The position numbers and the translations under genes were made by a program. The notes under the pieces were generated by a model, which was not told where the DNA came from, made no database searches, and worked only from the letters and a program-made list of their open reading frames with translations. Below are positions 1,721 to 62,993 of a DNA stretch of 64,000 nucleotides, one piece after another; position 1 is the stretch's first letter, and every line of letters starts with the position of its first letter. Origin of the DNA: Saprospiraceae bacterium (GTDB lineage Bacteria; Bacteroidota; Bacteroidia; Chitinophagales; Saprospiraceae); assembly GCA_030729925.1 (NCBI GenBank), contig JANQWK010000016.1:62001-126000 (forward strand), in the 5' to 3' direction.

Positions 1721-2263
1721 AATAAATTGATTTTTGTAGCGTATTTAATAAAACGTTAACGAATTTAGGGATTAGTTGGCTATTTCCAATAAAATCCGTT
1801 ACATAATTGTTAAATTTTGTTAAATCGCCGAACTTACCTGTTTCTTGGGTGTTCCCTGTTTTTTGGATTTAAAATATTGATATACAGTATCCTATGGGTT
1901 ATTATTTTTTGGAAAACATTCTGTTTTTCCTTAAGAAAACCTTATATTTTTTGGTAGCAGGTGGGCTGGTGCAGGGGAAATTTTCCTAAAATGAGGGGAG
2001 GGGAGTTTTTTCAAAAAAAAGCAGCTAAACCAAATAATATTTTGAATAGTCGGGTTTCCGGCGAAAACATCCAAATGTGGTTTTTTGTTAGTAAAAAGCA
2101 AATTTTTTTGCTTTAAATTATTGTTTGTCAATAGTTTAAAGCACAAGTGCAAGGCACTTTAAGGTGCCTTGCACTTAGATTACCCTAATTAATACTACGG
2201 AGTCCTAAAAGGTAACCTTGTTTTAGGGTTTTTTGGAGGTGTAATTTGGGTAGGTGTCGGCTT
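1721..2263. other. AT-rich intergenic region between susC and the DUF4252 gene
   Basis: This 543-bp stretch has no convincing gene. A short reading frame at 1931-2152 on the minus strand is low-complexity and has no recognisable features. It holds the 97-bp dispersed repeat copy 1 (2121-2217). Bases 1911-1930 contain an imperfect inverted repeat (GGAAAAC...GTTTTTCC), possibly part of the susC leader. Nothing else is recognised. Confidence 0.6.
2121..2217 (+). repeat. 97-bp dispersed intergenic repeat, copy 1
   Basis: This is one of three gapless copies (the others are at 31277-31373 plus and 62203-62299 minus). The core palindrome lies at 2145-2176 with 13-bp perfect arms (AAGTGCAAGGCAC / GTGCCTTGCACTT) around TTTAAG. 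A conserved tail follows (AGATTACCCTAATTAATAC, 2177-2195) and ends in GGTAACC. A less conserved 24-bp leader (19 of 24 like copy 2) precedes it. By hand alignment the 73-bp core plus tail matches copy 2 at 62 of 73 positions. It sits 47 bp beyond the stop codon of the DUF4252 gene. Function is unknown: a REP/MITE-like element, terminator or small RNA are all possible. Confidence 0.85.
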
Positions 2264-25299: not shown

Positions 25300-28200
25300 A
25301 TGCGTCTTGCACTGTTGTTGGCTGTCCTGGGGGTGAGCCCTTGTTTCGCGTCACCCTCCCCGCTGCTGACCAATCCCTCCGCATGTATGCTGGGATGGCA
25401 GCTAAGTGATAACAATTGCCCGGAAGGATCCAATTTTGGAACTTCCGACGTGTTTTCTATTGCCGTAACGGATGCAGGAGGGCAAAGTTTGGGCGAAGAT
25501 GTTTATTTGGCCGAACTTCGGCTGCTCATCGCACACAGCTGGGTGAGTGACCTGAATATTTCCCTGGTTGCACCAAGCGGGAAGCGCATTGACCTGAGCA
25601 GCGATAACGGGGGAGCAGGACAGCACTACGGCGATCCCGGCGCAGCGGACTGCAGCGGATATACTACCTTTGCCTACGAAGCTTGTACTTCCATCCAAAC
25701 AGCTGCTGCACCGTTTGCAGGGCGCTACTTGCCGGAAGAAGATTTTTCGATATTACACGATGGTACGGATCCAAACGGGATCTGGCGTTTGGAGATCTGT
25801 GACGACATCCCCGAGGATGTGGGCACCCTTGAATACGTAGCCCTCATTTTTGAGCCGCTGTCCTGCCTGTCGGCAAAAAATGTTCGCGTACTGAGCCAGG
25901 ATTCCACCGCTGTGGTGCTGACCTGGGAGGGAGCCAACGATTGTTCCCAAACCTGGATCGAATATGGTCCTCCCGGATTTGTGCCGGGCACAGATAGTCT
26001 GCCTGGAACCGGTACGCTGGTGCCCCAAGCTTGCAGTCCTATGTTGCTGACGGGGATGTTGCCCAACACCCGGTATGAGGTGTATGTCCGGACTTTTTGT
26101 CCGGTATCCGGGCGATTTAGCGCCAATTCCTGTGCCTTGCGCGTCGAAACGGGCTGTGCGCCGGGAGGTATCACCAGCCGGGAAGATTTTAACACCCAGG
26201 ACGACTGCATACCCGGCTGTGCGACTCCTTGTCCGCTGACCGGGACCTGGTACAACGAAGTTGGAGATGATTTGGACTGGACGGTAGGCCGGGGCGCAAC
26301 GCCCACCTTCGAAACCGGGCCGTCGGGCGATGCAGAGGGTTCCGGAAAATACCTTTTTCTCGAAACGAGTTTCCAGGCTTGCAGCGTAAACAAAAATGCT
26401 TTCCTGCGTTCGGCGTGCATGACCTACATCGGCAGTTCTTCCGACGACTGCGATTTTTCCTTTGAGTACCACCTGTATGGTTCCCAAATTGGTTTTTTGA
26501 GTTTGCAGCTGAGTACGGACGGAGGAAATAGTTGGTCGGAGATCTGGCGAGTGGCGGGCAACCAGGGCGATTCGTGGAAAAAGGCCTATGTGGACTTGCC
26601 TGGAATGGCAGCAGGGACGCTGTTTCAATTGCGGTTTGTAGGTGGGGGAGCCAAAGGCCCGAAGGGGGACATGGCCTTGGACAACCTCGTTTTTTATCAG
26701 GCGCGCGAGGCAGAAAATACGTATGTATATTATCGGGATGGCGATGGGGATGGGTATGGCCTTACGGCAAGCTGGATAAAAAGTTGTAGTGCTACTCCTC
26801 CGCCCGGTTATGCTGTTTTTTCCGGCGATTGCCGGGACGATGTGGCATGGATACATCCCGGTCTCGCCGAGATTCCCTGTGATGGGCTCGACAATAACTG
26901 CAACGGAATAGCGGATGACTACCTGCTTCCGCCGCTATCGGTTATCGGGGACACCATCTGTGCCGGTGAGCGGCCTGTGTTGTGCGTGATCGGCGATCCG
27001 GAACGTTTCGTATTCTGGTATGCCACTGCGGAGGGAGACGATCTGGTAGGCATAGGCAATTGTTTTTCCCCGGTTTTACCGGAAAACATCGGATCATCTC
27101 CGGTGGTGTACCGTTTTTATGCGGTAGAATCAGACTTTATCTGCACGTCTTCGGTCCGTTCGGTTGCTGAAGTGTTGGTCTATCCCAAACCTGCGCTGTC
27201 GCTTGCTGTATTGCCGGAAATTTGTGCAGGGGAGGAGTTACGGCTCGAATCGGTGGCCTTGCGCGACACCCACACTACAGGAGGCGTGCTTCGTTTTCAT
27301 AGCAGTTTGCCGGCCACCGAGGCCAATGTGCTGGATGGAACCTCCCTTTTGCCATCGGCAGATACCCTGATCTACGCTCAGGTGACCAATCCCTTTGGTT
27401 GTAGTGCCACGCTGCCTGTGCCTGTCAGGGTCAAGCCCCTGCCCGAAGTTCAGATTTTTCCGCAGGACAATTTTGACCTCTGCCTTAATAGCGAAGCCGT
27501 ATTGCGGGCTGTTGGTGCCAGTGGGACAGCTCCTTACACCTTCCGGTGGAACGTGGGGGGGACAGCCGACACCTTGTTGGTGGAGGCGGGAAGTACTTCC
27601 GGAGTGGTAGAACAATATGTGGTTAGTCTGACCGATGCCAGTGGGTGCCGCGCTTTGGACACCGTGCGGGTCAACCCGATTGCGCGAATATCGGCATTCA
27701 GTCGCAATATCCGTGCGGTGAGTGCTTGTGGCGCATCCGACGGCGAGGTCGCTTTGCTTCCCCTCGACGGATTGCCGCCTTTCCGTTATGCATGGGAAAA
27801 TGGTCGCGGGCAGCGGGGAGACACTTCCGGGATTGAGGGAGCCTTTGTATTGGGACAGCTGGAGCAGGGCAACTATCGGTTTACGATCAGCGACAATTCA
27901 GAGCAGGCCTGCGTATTTGTTACTCCTGCTATGTTGGTGGGCGGGCCGGGAGCGGTATTGGCAGAACCTGTCATTACACCACTGAGTTGTTACGACTCCG
28001 GCGACGGCAGCATTTGCATCCCTGTTTTGAGCGGAAATGCCAGTTTCCGCTGGAACACAGGTGCCGAGGAGGCTTGCATCAGCAACCTGGCAGCCGGAAC
28101 TTACTCCGTAACGGTAGTAGCCGGAGCCTGTACGACCATTTTTTCGGATTTGCAGGTCGCGTCACCTGAACCTGTTCGCATCAACTGGGAATTTACGGAG

Positions 28201-31200
28201 CCGGATTGCGCCGATGCCACCAATGGAACCATTCAGGCCAAGGTAGGCGGCGGCACCAGTGGATACCGCTATGCATGGAGATCGGGTCAGCGAACGCCTT
28301 CGATTGGGAATTTGGGTTCGGGGAAGTACGTTTTGTCGGTCCGCGATGCGAAAGGTTGCGAAGCAACAGACAGTGTGTTGCTTCGCGCACCGGATGTGCT
28401 GCAGATACAGGCGGACAGCATTCGACCAGTGTCCTGTAGTGTAGCTGCCGACGGATGGATTCGCGCAGGGGTGACTGGCGGCACAGCACCCTATACCTAT
28501 CGTTGGGACAATGGGCAAAATACCGCCCTTGCGGCCGGACTGTCTCCGGGTTCGTATCAATTGACGGTCACAGACGCCAACCATTGCATCGCCATAGCCG
28601 CCTTTACCCTCGAAGCCCCCTTACCCTTGGAGCTCGAACTGACTGCCCTGCACCCGCCGGTTTGTCCTGGCGACGACAGTGGCTCGCTTGCGGTTCGGCT
28701 CAGTGGGGGCAGCGGTGGATACCGTTACCGTTGGAGTACGGGCGACACCTTGGCCACAATCAGCGGATTATCGCCCGGTTCCTATACCCTGACCGTTTCA
28801 GATGGCATATTTTGCGAGGTGTTGGTTCGGAGTTTTGTGCTAAACGCACCTTCCGGGATTACGCTGGACGCTGACCTTAACCTTCCCACCTGTGTAGGAA
28901 GTCGTGACGGGGGGATTCATTTGGGGGTCTCATCCGGTCAAGCCCCGTTTGAGATCAGTTGGGCTAACGGTGCCTCGGGTAACACCCTGCGGGATCTTCC
29001 GGTGGGGGAGTACCCTGTGCACATCCGCGACGGTCGGGGCTGCGAGCTCGATACCAGTTTTTGGTTGACTGCACCCCAGGTATTTGACCCGGAGTTCACC
29101 ACCCTTGACCCAACCTGTTCGGGCAGTGCAGATGGGCTCATTCAGGCAAGGCTGCCCGGGAACCTGGCAGCACCGGTACAATTTTCCTGGAGTACGGGCA
29201 GCGAAGGCGGCTTACTGACCGGGTTGCCGGCGGGCGCTTATCAGCTCCGGTTGAGCGACAACAGGGGTTGTAGTTTTACCAGCGACTCCCTTCGACTGAA
29301 CGATCCTTTGCCTGTGGGAATAGAAGTATTGCACCACAGCGGCACGACCTGTCCGGGGGAAGCCTCCGGGTCGGTAGAAGTCCTGGCCTTTGGAGGAAAA
29401 GCGCCTTACACCTATCGCTGGTTGCCGGGTCTTTGGGATGTTCCGGCACTGGATGGATTGGGAGCGGGATCTTACCAGGTTCAGGTCAGGGACAGCCAGG
29501 GATGCCCGGCAGACACAACCTTGTCCATAACAGCCTTAGCTCCTATGCTGGTGGACATAGACTACGACCTCAACGAGCGTTGTATAGACAACACGGCCAA
29601 TCGCCTGCGGGCTGCTATCTCAGGAGGAGTCCCGCAGTATCGTTACGAATGGAGCGACGGAAGTACCACACCGGCATTGGAAAACGTGCCGCTAGGCGAT
29701 TATGCGCTGACCGTAACGGACGAAGCTGGTTGCAGCGCCAGCAGCAATGTAGTAAAAATAAAAGCTGCCTATAATCCCCTTCGACTGGAGCGGGCGGAAA
29801 TCCTTCCGGTGACCTGTTTTGGCGCAGCTGACGGCAAGTTTGTCGCCCAGGTATCGGGTGGGTCTGCCAACTATCGCTTTCACTTCAGCAACAACCGGGT
29901 GATCACGACAGCAGAGCCGGAAATTACCCTTGACAACTTACTTCCGGGCAGGACGTATGCGGTCACCATAACCGACATGGAGACCGGATGTGCCGTCACT
30001 TCTGCCAGGTTGCCGCTACAGTCCACCGCCCCCCTTCAGATCTATGCTCCTCAGGCCAGCGATGCCTTTTGTGCCGGAACGGCTGGTGGTCGGATTGCCG
30101 TCACCGTAGTTGGGGGAACGCCGGCTTATACCTATTCTTGGTATGACCAGTCGGGGCGGCAAGTGGGGACGGAAAAGATATTAAACGGCATTCCTTCCGG
30201 AACATACAGTCTGTGGGTGAGGGATGCCAACCAATGTGTGGACAGTCTCACCAGCATTGTCGTCAACAACCGCTTTCCGGAGATCCGGGTCCCCGATTCA
30301 TTGATCACCTTGCGCCCTGTTTCCTGTAAAGGTGGCAATGATGGTGCCATCAATGTGGCTCATCTGGGTGGATCGCCGCCGATCACTTATACCTGGGGCG
30401 ATGGTTATCGTGGAACCACGCGTACAGGTTTGGCTGCCGGGCGGTACAACATCACGCTCACAGACAGCAAAAACTGTCAACTGGAACTGTCGGATCTAAT
30501 TCTTTCCGAACCGGACTCAGCTTTAGGTTTGGACATCTTTTCGGGGGACATATCCTGTTATGGCGACAATGCTGGCTACCTTACTTTTTTCCCGAAGGGA
30601 GGAACAGCCCCTTATCACTTGGAAACAGGCGGGCAGGTCATAGCTTACCCTTACCATTTGGACCACCTCACAGCGGGGACTTATCCGGTAGTCTTGCGGG
30701 ACGCCAACAGCTGTGAAACAGTTGCGCTGGCGAGGGTCGAAGAAGCAGCGCCTTTGCGCATTCAATTTGATCTGTACCCCGATCCTGTTGCGGGAGGGAG
30801 CATTGTGGCGCAGGTCACGGGAGGTCAGCCGGATTACCGCTATCTTTGGAACACGGGTGACACCACTTCTCGGCTCACAGAATTGGATCAGGGAGTATAT
30901 GCGCTTACCGTTACGGATGCTTATGGCTGCGAAGCCAGTCAGCAAGTCCTCTTTGTGGATAACACAGAACCGGCACCGGATCCGGTAGGCTATCGCATTT
31001 TCCCCAATCCGGCCTCGGATTTGTTGTACTTAGAAAGCATTGGTTTTGCAGAAGCGAACCAGACCATCGCCTTGTACAATCCTTGGGGCATGCGGGTCAA
31101 AGCGTGGGATCAGCCCTTACCCCCCCGTGGGATGGCGACCTTAGCCGTAGCTGATTTGCCCCGTGGACTCTACTGGCTCTGCATCCTGAAGCCGAATGGA

Positions 31201-31236
31201 ATTTTAGCCTTTAGGTATCCGCTCTTACTGCAATAG
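25300..31236 (+). CDS. Giant multidomain SprB-repeat surface adhesin with T9SS type-A sorting tail
   Basis: The 1978-residue protein begins with a short signal peptide (RLALLLAVLGVSPCFASP). In order I see: a proprotein-convertase P-like domain (about 25-185); a fibronectin type III domain (about 195-280, LPNTRYEVYVRTFC); a MAM-like jelly roll (about 290-465, CDFSFEYHLYG, LSTDGGNSWSEIW); a MopE-type metal-binding motif (about 473-545, YYRDGDGDGYG, then CDGLDNNCNGIADD); Ig-like strands (about 550-640); then about 13-14 SprB-type repeats of about 80 residues (each with GG..PY.Y.W..G.....L..G.Y.LTV.D..GC); and a type-A sorting tail (about 1895-1978, YRIFPNPASDLLYLES). SprB-like proteins are surface adhesins exported by the type IX system and moved by the gliding machinery. 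It is 84 bp after leuS and probably has its own promoter. Confidence 0.92.
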   Translation: MRLALLLAVLGVSPCFASPSPLLTNPSACMLGWQLSDNNCPEGSNFGTSDVFSIAVTDAGGQSLGEDVYLAELRLLIAHSWVSDLNISLVAPSGKRIDLSSDNGGAGQHYGDPGAADCSGYTTFAYEACTSIQTAAAPFAGRYLPEEDFSILHDGTDPNGIWRLEICDDIPEDVGTLEYVALIFEPLSCLSAKNVRVLSQDSTAVVLTWEGANDCSQTWIEYGPPGFVPGTDSLPGTGTLVPQACSPMLLTGMLPNTRYEVYVRTFCPVSGRFSANSCALRVETGCAPGGITSREDFNTQDDCIPGCATPCPLTGTWYNEVGDDLDWTVGRGATPTFETGPSGDAEGSGKYLFLETSFQACSVNKNAFLRSACMTYIGSSSDDCDFSFEYHLYGSQIGFLSLQLSTDGGNSWSEIWRVAGNQGDSWKKAYVDLPGMAAGTLFQLRFVGGGAKGPKGDMALDNLVFYQAREAENTYVYYRDGDGDGYGLTASWIKSCSATPPPGYAVFSGDCRDDVAWIHPGLAEIPCDGLDNNCNGIADDYLLPPLSVIGDTICAGERPVLCVIGDPERFVFWYATAEGDDLVGIGNCFSPVLPENIGSSPVVYRFYAVESDFICTSSVRSVAEVLVYPKPALSLAVLPEICAGEELRLESVALRDTHTTGGVLRFHSSLPATEANVLDGTSLLPSADTLIYAQVTNPFGCSATLPVPVRVKPLPEVQIFPQDNFDLCLNSEAVLRAVGASGTAPYTFRWNVGGTADTLLVEAGSTSGVVEQYVVSLTDASGCRALDTVRVNPIARISAFSRNIRAVSACGASDGEVALLPLDGLPPFRYAWENGRGQRGDTSGIEGAFVLGQLEQGNYRFTISDNSEQACVFVTPAMLVGGPGAVLAEPVITPLSCYDSGDGSICIPVLSGNASFRWNTGAEEACISNLAAGTYSVTVVAGACTTIFSDLQVASPEPVRINWEFTEPDCADATNGTIQAKVGGGTSGYRYAWRSGQRTPSIGNLGSGKYVLSVRDAKGCEATDSVLLRAPDVLQIQADSIRPVSCSVAADGWIRAGVTGGTAPYTYRWDNGQNTALAAGLSPGSYQLTVTDANHCIAIAAFTLEAPLPLELELTALHPPVCPGDDSGSLAVRLSGGSGGYRYRWSTGDTLATISGLSPGSYTLTVSDGIFCEVLVRSFVLNAPSGITLDADLNLPTCVGSRDGGIHLGVSSGQAPFEISWANGASGNTLRDLPVGEYPVHIRDGRGCELDTSFWLTAPQVFDPEFTTLDPTCSGSADGLIQARLPGNLAAPVQFSWSTGSEGGLLTGLPAGAYQLRLSDNRGCSFTSDSLRLNDPLPVGIEVLHHSGTTCPGEASGSVEVLAFGGKAPYTYRWLPGLWDVPALDGLGAGSYQVQVRDSQGCPADTTLSITALAPMLVDIDYDLNERCIDNTANRLRAAISGGVPQYRYEWSDGSTTPALENVPLGDYALTVTDEAGCSASSNVVKIKAAYNPLRLERAEILPVTCFGAADGKFVAQVSGGSANYRFHFSNNRVITTAEPEITLDNLLPGRTYAVTITDMETGCAVTSARLPLQSTAPLQIYAPQASDAFCAGTAGGRIAVTVVGGTPAYTYSWYDQSGRQVGTEKILNGIPSGTYSLWVRDANQCVDSLTSIVVNNRFPEIRVPDSLITLRPVSCKGGNDGAINVAHLGGSPPITYTWGDGYRGTTRTGLAAGRYNITLTDSKNCQLELSDLILSEPDSALGLDIFSGDISCYGDNAGYLTFFPKGGTAPYHLETGGQVIAYPYHLDHLTAGTYPVVLRDANSCETVALARVEEAAPLRIQFDLYPDPVAGGSIVAQVTGGQPDYRYLWNTGDTTSRLTELDQGVYALTVTDAYGCEASQQVLFVDNTEPAPDPVGYRIFPNPASDLLYLESIGFAEANQTIALYNPWGMRVKAWDQPLPPRGMATLAVADLPRGLYWLCILKPNGILAFRYPLLLQ

Positions 31237-31276
31237 CTTTTTAAGGGGAAAATAGTCCATAAAAATAAATAAAATA

Positions 31277-31373
31277 TTGGCTGTCAATGTGTTAAAACAC
31301 AGGTGCAAGGCACCTTAAGGTGACTTGCACCTAGATTACCCTAATTAATACCTCGACATCCAAAAAAGTAACC
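31277..31373 (+). repeat. 97-bp dispersed intergenic repeat, copy 2
   Basis: This copy lies between convergent genes, 41 bp after the adhesin stop and 24 bp before the stop of the PorE-like gene. The core palindrome is at 31301-31332 (AGGTGCAAGGCACC TTAA GGTGACTTGCACCT, one mismatch). The tail AGATTACCCTAATTAATAC is identical to copy 1, and the last bases are GTAACC. It matches copy 3 at 68 of 73 core-plus-tail positions by hand alignment. It may also serve as a bidirectional terminator here. Confidence 0.85.
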
Positions 31374-31396
31374 ACGACTTGGGATGCTGTCGGTGA

Positions 31397-33382
31397 TCAC
31401 TCAATGATGGTAAAAGTCGTACGTCGGTTGGTTTGGTGTTGTTCTTCGGTACATCGGGCGCAGATACAATCTACGGCGGGTAAGCTTTCGCCGTATCCTT
31501 TGGCGGCCAGTCGGTCGGGTGATATCCCTTTAGAAATCAGGTACTCTACTGCGGAAATGGCCCTTCGTTGCGACAACTGTTCGTTGTAGGCGCTCCCGCC
31601 CCGGCAATCGGTGTGGGAAGACAATTGGATATTGATATTGGGATTGAGCAGCAGGTTATCGGCCAGTGCATTGAGGGTAGGCATAGCATCCTCTCGGATA
31701 TCCCATTTGTCGAAATCGTAATAAATATTTTCCAGCACAATCTCCTGTCCCAGGAAAATTTTATCCAGAACCACTTCGATTTCGAAGACCTGTTGGGGAT
31801 TATTGGGGTCCTCTCCGATACCTGCGGTTGAGAATAAAGCTTGGTTGTTGAGATAGCCGTTGGCGGAGCCCAGGAAGCGGTAGTCCTTATCCTTATCCAG
31901 ATCTATGCTAAAGAACCCATCTTCGCCGACCACCACGGTTGTTTTCAATCCGGGAGCTTCGATCTGCACGCTGGCGCCATTGAGGGGTTTGCGACCGATC
32001 ACTCGGCTATTGGGATTATTGGGATCCTGATAAATTTTTTCCAGCACATAGCCTTCCAGTTTCATCGAATACACGATGGCCTGTTCTTGTTCCTCGGCAG
32101 GAGGCTCTGGTTTGGGCGGCAGCACCCGTTTTTCGAAGCGATAGATATCATCATTGCCGATACCTTCGAAGCGGGTAGAACTAAAAAATCCGGTTTGAAG
32201 GACATCCTGTTGAGGATCGGACGCGTACACGACCAGACCGAAATCATCTCCACCAGAATTTACGGGAGGTTTGAGGTTAAACGGCGGAGCCCAGGTATTG
32301 GCATTCAGGGGATAGGTTTTGAAGATATCCAACCCGCCCATACCTGTGTGGCCATCGGAAGAAAAGTACAGGGTATCGGCATGCAGGGTAGGAAACTTTT
32401 CATTGCCTGTAGTATTGATATTGCGTCCCAGGGTTTGGGGATCATCCCAGCCCCCATCTGCATTTTTCCGGCTGAACCAGATATCGTAACCTCCCCATCC
32501 GTCCGGATCATTGCTGGAAAAATAGAGGGTTTGGCCATCGTCGGAAAGCCAGGGACTGGAATAATTGACTTGATCTTTGACAAACTCCAGCGGGCGTGGT
32601 TCGGACCAGACTCCATTTTTGAGAAAGCTGTACATGATTTTACAATAGCTATCCTCTTTTTTATCCCCGAAGCATCGGGAAAAAAAAGCCTCGGTAAACG
32701 AGCGGTTGAAGCAGATCGTACCCTCGTTGTTGTCGGTATTGAAAGGAAGTTCCAGCGTATTAACGGCACCGGATCGGAGATCGGCCACAAAAAAATCAGA
32801 AAACTTGTTACCTGTCCAGAAGTAGGTACTTTTTCCTTGGCTGGGCTGTCTATCGGAGGTAAACACCAGTTGGTCATTTTCCCACAACACGGGCGAATAC
32901 TCTGCAAAACCTGTATTGAAATCTGCCAATTCAGTTTGGTATTCCACTTCTTGGATACCTTGCCAGCCGAGAGCGATTTCGCAGGCATTGATCTCGCGTC
33001 GGAACTCGTAGGGGCTGCCAATTTCCAGGCCCAGTTCCTTGAATGCCTGCATGGCCTCGGTATAGCGTTCGGCTTTTTTCAGGGTAAAGGCATACGCTTT
33101 GAGGGCATCAATACCGTATTGGTTGTCATAAGCCTTTTGGTACCAATCCAGTGCGGCATCGCTTTGATTGGTTTGGCTGTAGGACTCTGCCAGCATAAAA
33201 GCCAGTTTGCCCCTTTCCAATCTGGTTTTTGCCTTTTTAAAATCCTTTTGGAGCAAAGTAATGGCAACTGCATACTGTTTGCGTTCGAAAGCGGCGGTAC
33301 CCTCTTTGAGTTGCTGGGGGGTATTGCAGGATACAGACAGCGCCAGGATAAGCAGCAGGGCTATGGAATTGGCTTTAGGCAT
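31397..33382 (-). CDS. PorE-like OmpA-family lipoprotein (TPR, beta-propeller, CRD, OmpA)
   Basis: The ATG at 33382 begins a lipoprotein signal (LLLILALSVSC, lipidated Cys19); the product has 661 residues. Domains in order: TPR helices (about 20-155, KRGKLAFMLAESYSQTNQSDAALDWYQKAY-like), WD40/PD40 propeller strands (about 165-410, QLVFTSDR, TLYFSSNDPDGWGGYDIWFS, TLYFSSDGHTGMGGLDIF), a carboxypeptidase-regulatory beta domain (about 440-520), and an OmpA peptidoglycan-binding domain (about 540-661, YYDFDKWDIREDA, SSHTDCRGG, NEQLSQRRA, KGYGESLP). This is the architecture of PorE, which anchors the Porphyromonas type IX secretion system to peptidoglycan. Other OmpA proteins share it, so the exact name is an inference. 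CAAAAATA at 33425-33432 could be the -7 box. Confidence 0.85.
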   Translation of the reverse strand: MPKANSIALLLILALSVSCNTPQQLKEGTAAFERKQYAVAITLLQKDFKKAKTRLERGKLAFMLAESYSQTNQSDAALDWYQKAYDNQYGIDALKAYAFTLKKAERYTEAMQAFKELGLEIGSPYEFRREINACEIALGWQGIQEVEYQTELADFNTGFAEYSPVLWENDQLVFTSDRQPSQGKSTYFWTGNKFSDFFVADLRSGAVNTLELPFNTDNNEGTICFNRSFTEAFFSRCFGDKKEDSYCKIMYSFLKNGVWSEPRPLEFVKDQVNYSSPWLSDDGQTLYFSSNDPDGWGGYDIWFSRKNADGGWDDPQTLGRNINTTGNEKFPTLHADTLYFSSDGHTGMGGLDIFKTYPLNANTWAPPFNLKPPVNSGGDDFGLVVYASDPQQDVLQTGFFSSTRFEGIGNDDIYRFEKRVLPPKPEPPAEEQEQAIVYSMKLEGYVLEKIYQDPNNPNSRVIGRKPLNGASVQIEAPGLKTTVVVGEDGFFSIDLDKDKDYRFLGSANGYLNNQALFSTAGIGEDPNNPQQVFEIEVVLDKIFLGQEIVLENIYYDFDKWDIREDAMPTLNALADNLLLNPNINIQLSSHTDCRGGSAYNEQLSQRRAISAVEYLISKGISPDRLAAKGYGESLPAVDCICARCTEEQHQTNRRTTFTIIE

Positions 33383-33487
33383 GGTTGCTCGATTAAAGAA
33401 CTTTGATGATAAAGGATTAAAGTACAAAAATAACAGCTAAGGGGAAAGCTTGGTTTTGGGTTTATAGGCTGGAGCCTCAAAAAATAA

Positions 33488-61734: not shown

Positions 61735-62121
61735 TTACTTTTTTTTGCCGACAGGCAGCAACAGCAAACCCCAACCGATAATAAACAGGGTTCCCCCAAT
61801 GGGTGTGACAGGTCCCAACCAAGACAGGTTCACGCCCAGGGCATCTTGTGCTGCTAACAGGTAAAGCGATCCGGAAAACAGACAGATGCCTGCTACAAAC
61901 AGCCATCCCGTTCTATGCAAATGCTTGCTTTCAAGGTGCTGCTGCAGTAGCCCTGCCAGGATCAAGCCCAGCGCGTGATAAAACTGATAGCGCACCCCAA
62001 TTTCAAAGGTTTCCAATTGTGCAGACTCAAGCACTTCCTTTAGGGCATGCGCCCCGAAAGCACCCAATACCACTGCCGTCATTGCGAAAATGGCTCCCAG
62101 CCTGATGAATGTTCCCTGCAT
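61735..62121 (-). CDS. DUF423-family small membrane protein
   Basis: The 128-residue protein (start ATG at 62121) has four membrane helices: AIFAMTAVVLGAFGAHAL, YQFYHALGLILAGLLQ, GWLFVAGICLFSGSLYLLAA and TPIGGTLFIIGWGLLLL. It contains the family hallmarks GAFGAHALK at the N-terminus, YHALGL, CLFSGSLY and GPVTPIGG near the end. DUF423 (YgdD in E. coli) is widespread, with unknown function. The gene is convergent with the CPMC gene (15 bp apart) and has no close partner in this window. Confidence 0.9.
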   Translation of the reverse strand: MQGTFIRLGAIFAMTAVVLGAFGAHALKEVLESAQLETFEIGVRYQFYHALGLILAGLLQQHLESKHLHRTGWLFVAGICLFSGSLYLLAAQDALGVNLSWLGPVTPIGGTLFIIGWGLLLLPVGKKK

Positions 62122-62202
62122 GATATGTCTTCTTTTTGCTTGCCAAATTTAGCTGCTTTCGCACAAAAAACAAAAGTAGCTGAAAAGCTTCAACCCCTGT
62201 GC

Positions 62203-62299
62203 GGTTACTTTTTTGATCGTCGAGGTATTAATAAGGGTATTCTAGGTGCAAGTCACCTTAAGGTGCCTTGCACCTGATTCTTAAAACATTTAAAGTCAA
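62203..62299 (-). repeat. 97-bp dispersed intergenic repeat, copy 3
   Basis: On the minus strand this copy reads from 62299 to 62203. The palindromic core (62275-62244) is identical in its 32 bases to copy 2; the tail differs from copy 2 at 5 of the remaining 41 positions by hand count and ends in the same CAAAAAAGTAACC. It lies 17 bp downstream of the ung stop codon and 82 bp upstream of the DUF423 start, so it could affect one or both genes. Confidence 0.85.
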
Positions 62300-62315
62300 G
62301 CTATTAGACAAAAAT

Positions 62316-62993
62316 TTATTGTGGTAATTCCCAGTTGATGGGGGGGATTCCCTGTCGGGAAAAATACGCATTGGCCTGGGAAAAGTGTTTGCTGCCGAAA
62401 AAGGCACCACGAGCGAGTGGGGAGGGGTGGGCTGCTTCCAGGATGAGGTGTTTTGACGCGTCAATCAGGACTTTTTTCTTTTTGGCATAATTGCCCCAGA
62501 GCATAAAGACCAGTTGATGGCGTTCTTGTGACAATCGCTGAATGACGGTATCCGTGAAGTTTTGCCAACCGATATGCTGGTGAGATTGCGGTTTGTTTTT
62601 TTCTACCGTCAGCATGGCATTGAGCAGGAAGACGCCTTGTGCTGCCCATGCACTGAGATCCCCATGTGCCGAAACCGGGATGCCGAGATCGTCTTGGAGT
62701 TCTTTGAATATATTGGAGAGGGATTGGGGCGTACGGACATTTCGGGGCACAGAAAACGATAGTCCCATGGCTTCTCCGGGGTTGTGGTAAGGGTCCTGAC
62801 CGAGGATAACCACTTTGACCTTATCGAAAGGACATAACTGAAAGGCTTGAAAGATAAGCGCTCCCGGAGGGTAAATGGTCTTACCGGCTGTCTTTTCTGC
62901 ACGCAGAAACGCTGCCATTTCTTCAAACCAGGTTGTTTCGAACACATCCGCCAGAACGGACTTCCAGCTTTCTTCTATGTTTACTTGACTCAT
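62316..62993 (-). CDS. ung: Uracil-DNA glycosylase
   Basis: Ung removes uracil from DNA. The 225-residue protein has the family-1 active site GQDPYHNPGEAMGLSFSVP (residues 65-83, catalytic Asp67), the uracil-recognition segment LLNAMLTVEKNKPQSH, VFMLWGNYAKKK (polar pocket), and the DNA-intercalation loop HPSPLARGAFFGSKHFS, including the catalytic His. Length is typical. The gene ends 17 bp before repeat copy 3 and starts 17 bp after the stop of the alpha/beta hydrolase gene, so the two may be co-transcribed. Confidence 0.97.
   Translation of the reverse strand: MSQVNIEESWKSVLADVFETTWFEEMAAFLRAEKTAGKTIYPPGALIFQAFQLCPFDKVKVVILGQDPYHNPGEAMGLSFSVPRNVRTPQSLSNIFKELQDDLGIPVSAHGDLSAWAAQGVFLLNAMLTVEKNKPQSHQHIGWQNFTDTVIQRLSQERHQLVFMLWGNYAKKKKVLIDASKHLILEAAHPSPLARGAFFGSKHFSQANAYFSRQGIPPINWELPQ

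Follow-up and report, generated by a model that had tools for sequence, protein, structure and literature searches.

A covarying palindrome in a Saprospiraceae genome is probably the recognition hairpin of an atypical REP/RAYT-type DNA repeat

Among described systems, the closest relatives of the repeat considered here are the REPs and their RAYT transposases. REPs keep their palindromicity, suggesting complementary mutations (PMC2817692), and roles in transcription termination or mRNA stabilisation have been hypothesised for them (PMC3733652). In the stem of the E. coli REP, a mismatched bulge is needed for activity (PMC8266576). In the RAYT classification, the repeats of the subclass 2.6 RAYTs of Bacteroidetes are described as atypical and lacking the tag, and REP-like sequences were not found next to subclass 2.1 genes (PMC6006769). 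The Saprospiraceae repeat has the marks of a REP/RAYT system in the broad sense: an encoded HuH/Y1 transposase, cognate repeats beside it and high-copy extragenic palindromes. We consider it highly probable (about 0.88) that this is a non-autonomous single-strand DNA repeat of that kind, with the palindrome as its recognition hairpin; it is atypical in its ~115-nt unit, its missing GT[AG]G foot, its mostly single copies and its near-constant single mismatch. With E. coli TnpA_REP and the Y and Z REPs (subclass 2.2) it shares the transposase fold, an imperfect, mismatched hairpin, high copy number, intergenic location and a RAYT gene beside its own repeats; unlike those REPs, it has no GTAG foot and occurs mostly singly rather than in BIMEs. 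GTAG-tagged REPs, moreover, are about 20–65 nt long, whereas conservation here extends over the whole of the longer, untagged unit.

Three copies lie in the window, that is, the whole stretch of 64,000 nt that was analysed. The original prediction placed 32-nt cores at 2145–2176, 31301–31332 and, on the minus strand, 62244–62275, and both the positions and the differences it described are correct: copy 1 has A-T at pair 2/31 and T-G at pair 14/19, where copies 2 and 3 have G-C and C-G, and in the latter two copies an A at position 23 faces G10. Exactly one non-Watson-Crick pair is found in each of the three hairpins. The features of the window are as follows:

2103..2218, plus strand: repeat copy 1, full element of ~115 nt (covariance model R1, 115.3 bits, E 7e-23)
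2106..2146, plus strand: AT-rich inverted repeat I1 of copy 1, holding the TTGA-N3-TCAA module at 2121–2131 (TTGTTTGTCAA in copy 1)
2145..2176, plus strand: GC-rich hairpin of copy 1, 14 bp with a TTAA loop, T.G at 14/19 and A-T at 2/31
2177..2196, plus strand: conserved 3' module of copy 1 at the hairpin foot, consensus GATTACCCTTATTAATACC, here AGATTACCCTAATTAATACT (from column conservation)
2207..2217, plus strand: sharp right end of copy 1, AAAARGTAACC, with no conservation beyond it (from column conservation)
31259..31374, plus strand: repeat copy 2, full element (121.9 bits)
31301..31332, plus strand: hairpin of copy 2, G.A at pair 10/23
62202..62317, minus strand: repeat copy 3, full element (117.4 bits)
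62244..62275, minus strand: hairpin of copy 3, G.A at pair 10/23

Copy 1 was itself among the rows from which the covariance model was built. On the window the model finds exactly these three places, at 115–122 bits, and three weaker matches (37–44 bits) are opposite-strand readings of the same places. A search of the window with the core of copy 1 at up to three mismatches recovers copy 1 alone, and 100 shuffles of the window yield no match to it at that tolerance. Copy 2 sits between convergent genes (ORFs 25300–31236 on the plus strand and 31397–33427 on the minus strand), and copy 3 overlaps by 2 nt the stop codon of the minus-strand ORF 62316–62993, the next ORF after it being 61735–62121, also on the minus strand.

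The genome to which the window belongs (G000; 3.74 Mb in 104 contigs) carries at least 150 copies of the ~115-nt repeat, all 150 of the 150 candidates scored by the model being matches (the weakest at 94.6 bits); this count is a lower bound, at least two known copies being absent from it, one abutting the RAYT gene described below (98.6 bits) and one of two neighbours in L011. A strict hairpin pattern occurs at 69 places and the conserved motif TACCCTTATTAAT at 114 exact places (63 forward, 51 reverse), and the 150 copies are divided 79/71 between the strands. The order of the unit is an A- or T-rich tract, the AT-rich TTGA-N3-TCAA module, the GC hairpin (consensus AGGTGCAAGGCACC-TTAA-GGTGCCTTGCACCT), the foot module, ~10 nt of variable sequence and the AAAARGTAACC end, so that the hairpin itself occupies 32 nt of the conserved length. 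On the minus strand, GTAA lies within 9 nt 5' of the hairpin in 86 of 97 aligned copies; GT[AG]G was found 0–2 nt 5' of the hairpin, on either strand, in none of the 97. TTAC is the target of IS608. A hairpin with a TTAC-like motif at the end of the unit and a complement to that motif at the foot recalls the ends of IS608 and the IS200/IS605 elements, with the differences that the repeat unit here has no transposase gene and that the guide pairing between hairpin foot and right end is one we can only infer, because both motifs are nearly invariant.

The copies lie between genes: of the 84 that have 700 nt of sequence on each side, none shares over 30 nt with a gene as called by a simple and crude codon-usage script, and the few that touch a gene end do so by 2–7 nt. 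For 75 of the 84, both neighbours could be called (27 convergent, 18 divergent and 30 tandem). The copies are mostly single, with a median spacing of 11.3 kb over 93 gaps in a list that lacks some close copies; inverted pairs are not the basic unit, as they are in REPIN and BIME arrangements, since only six of the 93 gaps in that list are under 2 kb, four of them inverted. Many contigs start or end inside a copy or within ~100 nt of one (e.g. the ends of C2 and C34 and the starts of C16, C39, C54, C79 and C101); the repeat is probably one cause of assembly fragmentation, and some copies may have been missed. We infer the mobility of the repeat and its exact ends: comparison with the same-genus genome G001 gave no clean empty site, coding synteny being at 71–77% identity and intergenic DNA not alignable. 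The repeat is unnamed in the titles and abstracts found by a literature search that covered few subscription journals.

For covariation within the genome, 108 rows were fetched, 101 parsed and 97 kept, seven being dropped for want of the palindrome pattern (some of them plainly spurious) and four as too short. Window copies and copies from searches favouring a given hairpin make up 41 of the 97; the remaining 56, fetched by the tail motif alone and thus blind to the hairpin, were counted apart. Selection on pairing, which the original prediction had read from three copies, is borne out when more copies are tested. Base pairing of the arms is kept: 93.4% of hairpin cells are paired in the 97 copies against 91.5% in shuffles, and both sides have changed in 20 cells against a shuffled mean of 7.5, neither value being reached in any of 500 shuffles. 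Counts of doubly changed pairs (3 against 2.5) and of further pair types (7 against 6.1) are not above shuffles in the same copies, and nine of the 14 pairs of the stem are invariant. Nearly all of the within-genome signal is carried by pair 6/27 (alignment columns 49/70), which is C-G in 77 copies, G-C in 18 and C.C in two. Among the 56 tail-motif copies it is complementary in 55, against 32.7 expected from column make-up, and in the other 41 copies in 40 (36.3 expected).

The two pairs that had first drawn attention are weak evidence beside this strong one. The double change at pair 2/31 is real, but A-T occurs in copy 1 alone of the 97, with one G.T (L039, an intermediate) and two G.G; the wobble at 14/19, argued to preserve RNA pairing, does not generalise, since 29 of the 97 copies have C.A there, which is unpaired as RNA on this strand. 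Substitutions in the two arms independent of each other, the outcome set against the claim in advance, are seen at pair 10/23 only, where 17 of the 56 tail-motif copies are complementary against 21.2 expected (24 of the other 41, with 25.6 expected). As a control, the AT-rich consensus palindrome shows covariation at or below shuffles in the same 97 copies, and its candidacy as a second selected hairpin was rejected: the consensus is palindromic, without covariation beyond shuffles. Two small hairpins, one per half-arm, were likewise rejected, half-arm pairing not being kept across the tabulated letter combinations. On a tree of the flanks, pair 6/27 changes 18 times against a shuffled mean of 18.8, and other labels tried gave no clustering, so the 18 G-C copies may not all be separate events.

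It is worth noting that matched arms can also arise by mutation. Template switching in an imperfect palindrome, a known kind of mutation that yields exactly matched double changes, would copy one arm onto the other and make the arms agree without any function, and perfect hairpins of the kind it would produce do exist (8 of the 97 copies). The distribution of mismatches makes this account unlikely. Exactly one non-Watson-Crick pair is present in 84 of the 97 copies and two in five. Pair 10/23 is non-Watson-Crick in 56 copies and unpaired in 55, in several letter combinations (states C.C, G.A, G.G, C.A and G.T), whilst pair 6/27, four pairs away in the same stem, is unpaired in two; a blanket correction of the arms should mend both, so that a mismatched 10/23 beside a paired 6/27 argues for position-specific selection and not for general repair of the palindrome. 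Template switching would also leave the linkage with RAYT genes, set out below, unexplained. Pair 14/19 is non-Watson-Crick in 31 of the 97 copies, and mismatches at 10/23 and 14/19 never co-occur, ten copies having neither (Fisher p 5e-17, a value that overstates independence because shared descent can produce part of the exclusion). Among the 101 parsed rows, the 31 that carry an A at position 19 all agree in their letter combination elsewhere in the stem, which is the reason for this caution. The varied states at 10/23 set against strict pairing at 6/27 are the better argument.

Hairpins in relatives extend the picture beyond one genome. Across 398 genomes of the family, with the best nine candidates per genome scored, the covariance model matched the genome of the window and, marginally, one place in G005 and one in G358. 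Raising the number of scored candidates to 149 in 25 of these genomes brought weak matches in G005 (3), G023 (3) and G358 (2), and the other 22 gave none at E 0.1. The relatives' matches follow a common scheme, AG-N5-AGGCA-loop-TGCCT-N5-CT, in which the AGGCA/TGCCT core is constant. As a pattern, this scheme is frequent in some genera, matching (forward/reverse) 17/17 times in G023, 11/13 in G005, 8/7 in G316 and 78/78 in the genome of the window, against 0 to 2 for reversed-pattern controls; it is present in 122 of the 398 genomes, mostly with one or two matches, as by chance. In G001 (same genus, 88% complete), the model did not find the repeat, and the loose AGGCA pattern occurs twice forward and once reverse.

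The outer arms of the relatives' hairpins constitute the strongest evidence that pairing rather than sequence is kept in the outer stem. Among the matches listed, 42 hairpins from 16 genomes matched on both strands, a condition that fixes the AG/CT ends and the core and leaves the five outer letters free; one-strand rows were left out, and likely chance rows (G217 and one of G214) were kept. The outer 5-nt arms are fully complementary in 35 of the 42, with 24 distinct sequences. Overall shuffles of the arms give a mean of 1.9 (maximum 9) and within-genome shuffles a mean of 20.6 (maximum 31), and none of 10,000 reaches 35 in either case. In G005 (L131, L142 and L145), the inner hairpin is nearly constant and the outer arms differ completely between copies: those of L131 (TTTAACGCGAAT) and L142 (TTTGTGGAGTT) are both still palindromic, and those of L145 are not.

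The original prediction had left the choice between RNA and DNA undecided. If the transcript were what is selected for pairing, as a terminator, a 3'-UTR stabiliser or a small RNA, this would accord with a 14-bp intergenic hairpin, with convergent gene pairs as the commonest single context (27 of 75) and with the short T-rich stretch that follows the hairpin on the minus strand (consensus TGTGTTTTAAAA), where a simple scan flags a terminator-like site in copy 2; such roles have, as noted, been hypothesised for REPs (PMC3733652). Nevertheless, every gene orientation is represented, terminator-like sites number 0, 1 and 0 in copies 1, 2 and 3, the C.A at pair 14/19 recurs in nearly a third of copies, and no Rfam family reaches its gathering score in the window. 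Rfam matches below threshold in 2080–2240 number 14, all far under their gathering scores and taken as chance; the one with the lowest E is to a microRNA family (E 1.6e-4, 29.6 of 69 bits). A function in RNA would also leave the RAYT linkage unaccounted for. We therefore regard it as quite improbable, and of the two levels originally proposed, the RNA reading is unsupported, the probable cognate protein being a single-strand DNA transposase.

That protein came to light through a relative. In G005, a Y1-transposase gene has its own cognate hairpin on both sides, and its product has one intact homologue in the genome of the window, 47% identical:

G000:C94, L179:1498–2127: probable cognate RAYT, intact ORF of 209 aa, HuH/Y1

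Two full copies of the repeat lie upstream of this gene in opposite orientation, one at -492 to -377 (plus) and the other abutting the ATG (minus); with 150 copies placed at random, two would come within 500 nt with a probability of about 0.002. Repeats are seen here only 5' of the gene, an assembly (N) gap beginning 257 nt after the stop codon, so that repeats on both sides of the RAYT gene are seen only in G005. The predicted structure (pLDDT 81, from 18 sequences) was searched against 350,542 PDB chains, and its best match is 4er8, TnpA_REP with a REP hairpin (E 5.6e-6, TM 0.50/0.62, 15% identity), followed by IS200/IS605 transposases. Sequence profiles score below their cut-offs: NF047646 REP_Tyr_transpos gives E 2e-15 and 56.9 bits in two stretches against a cut-off of 80 bits, a second profile gives 20.6 bits against 23, and a sequence search of the PDB gave no match. 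An insertion that splits the match plausibly accounts for these scores, and the structure model contains a low-confidence insertion before the Y-motif helix.

The first RAYT genes met in the genome of the window (C9, C77 and C20) were rejected as the cognate, being different genes that have an internal tandem repeat and are cut by contig ends. The repeat is absent from the 1.4–4.3 kb seen beside at least two of these cut genes, which at first looked like evidence against a REP/RAYT system; the probable cognate was found only through the G005 protein. These at least two further RAYTs survive as halves at contig ends (C9 end, C77 start and C20 end; L126, L127 and L125), and in the C77 and C20 pieces the break falls within a short tandem repeat that keeps the frame (..VGAQKDVGAQ..) and separates the HuH half from the Y half, which recalls reports of subclass 2.4 genes with repeats inserted in them. 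About 170–210 nt upstream of another RAYT gene, L126:1279–1317 holds two tandem copies of AAAAATGTCATGAGTGACA.

The repeat might instead be a protein-binding site, such as a nucleoid or chromosome-organising signal, spread for that reason, or an ordinary MITE of some other transposon. Wide spacing of the copies and the resemblance of the TTGA-N3-TCAA module to a dimer site would suit such an origin. Yet that AT-rich module is without covariation, the strands are used almost equally, and both the repeat (by the model) and a homologue of the RAYT are unmatched in the 88% complete genome G001. The inverted repeats seen at copy 1 are internal, whereas those of a MITE are terminal. An origin of either sort is, on this evidence, very unlikely.

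Beyond the genome of the window, at least 80 related RAYT loci were collected in Bacteroidota, 70 of them with both flanks. A long palindrome lies within 400 nt at 42 of the 70, against 5 of 61 controls at 1000–1400 nt, and the same palindrome stands on both sides at 21 of the 70, against none of the 61 distant controls; at some loci, L228 and L268 among them, the two flanking palindromes show, when compared, changes in one arm matched by changes in the other. The mere presence of a RAYT homologue does not track the hairpin, given that in a search of 40 genomes homologues also occurred in genomes without the hairpin pattern and were missing in some with it. After the stop codon of the G005 RAYT, L120:1789–1841 holds a longer nested palindrome that resembles two repeats joined at their tips. 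Around other RAYT genes in the family there are 13 (L195, G175), eight (L202, G250) and five (L186, G067) hairpins of quite different sequence, those at L195 partly forming a regular tandem array.

The motifs of this RAYT clade are mixed between subclasses 2.6 and 2.1. Subclass 2.6 (group 5, Bacteroidetes) agrees in its Bacteroidota host, its YIH[QN]NP Y motif (55 of 74 relatives here), repeats without GT[AG]G, further copies at other genomic sites and an insertion before the Y-motif helix, which is of low confidence here (PMC6006769). It differs in that NH[LIV]H and WQ are listed for it and a weaker secondary structure is described there (PMC6006769), whereas here the unit is 115 nt, the HuH motif is NHFH in 73 of 74 relatives, in part through selection, as the search that fetched them was built on MPNHFH[WF], and F stands at the W position in 72 of 74. 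Subclass 2.1 (group 1, TIRYT) shares longer proteins and, as listed in the same source, NH[YF]H and FQ (PMC6006769); unlike the description of that subclass, hairpins flank the RAYT gene here.

Read as a REP/RAYT-type repeat, the unit would work as follows. The RAYT would bind the hairpin folded from single-stranded DNA, on the lagging strand or otherwise exposed, would nick near the conserved TTAC/GTAAC motifs and would thereby have spread the unit, by copying or moving it, among intergenic sites. Compensatory changes that preserve pairing would be expected if the hairpin is the substrate of a RAYT. The one mismatch that most copies carry, usually at 10/23 and otherwise at 14/19, may be part of the recognised shape, as with the bulge of the E. 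coli REP stem, and could help to distinguish the strands of an otherwise near-symmetric palindrome. A more specific proposal, which we offer tentatively and regard as somewhat doubtful, is that a clade of Bacteroidota RAYTs uses an untagged ~115-nt unit with a single hairpin, in which the stem is under opposing constraints, strict co-variation at most of its variable pairs and enforced non-pairing at one position (mostly 10/23, else 14/19); the mismatch would be a strand mark replacing the GT[AG]G foot, and TTAC/GTAA would supply an IS608-like guide and cut site.

A suspicion drawn from three copies has thus become something measurable. A single genome gives about 100 natural hairpin variants together with a probable cognate enzyme, and relatives add further hairpin/RAYT pairs, so that the rules of recognition become readable from sequence and testable. 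The covariation here, moreover, is better accounted for by single-stranded DNA than by RNA, and as such is a caution for RNA-discovery pipelines. Finally, it extends REP/RAYT biology in a phylum whose repeats published work calls atypical.
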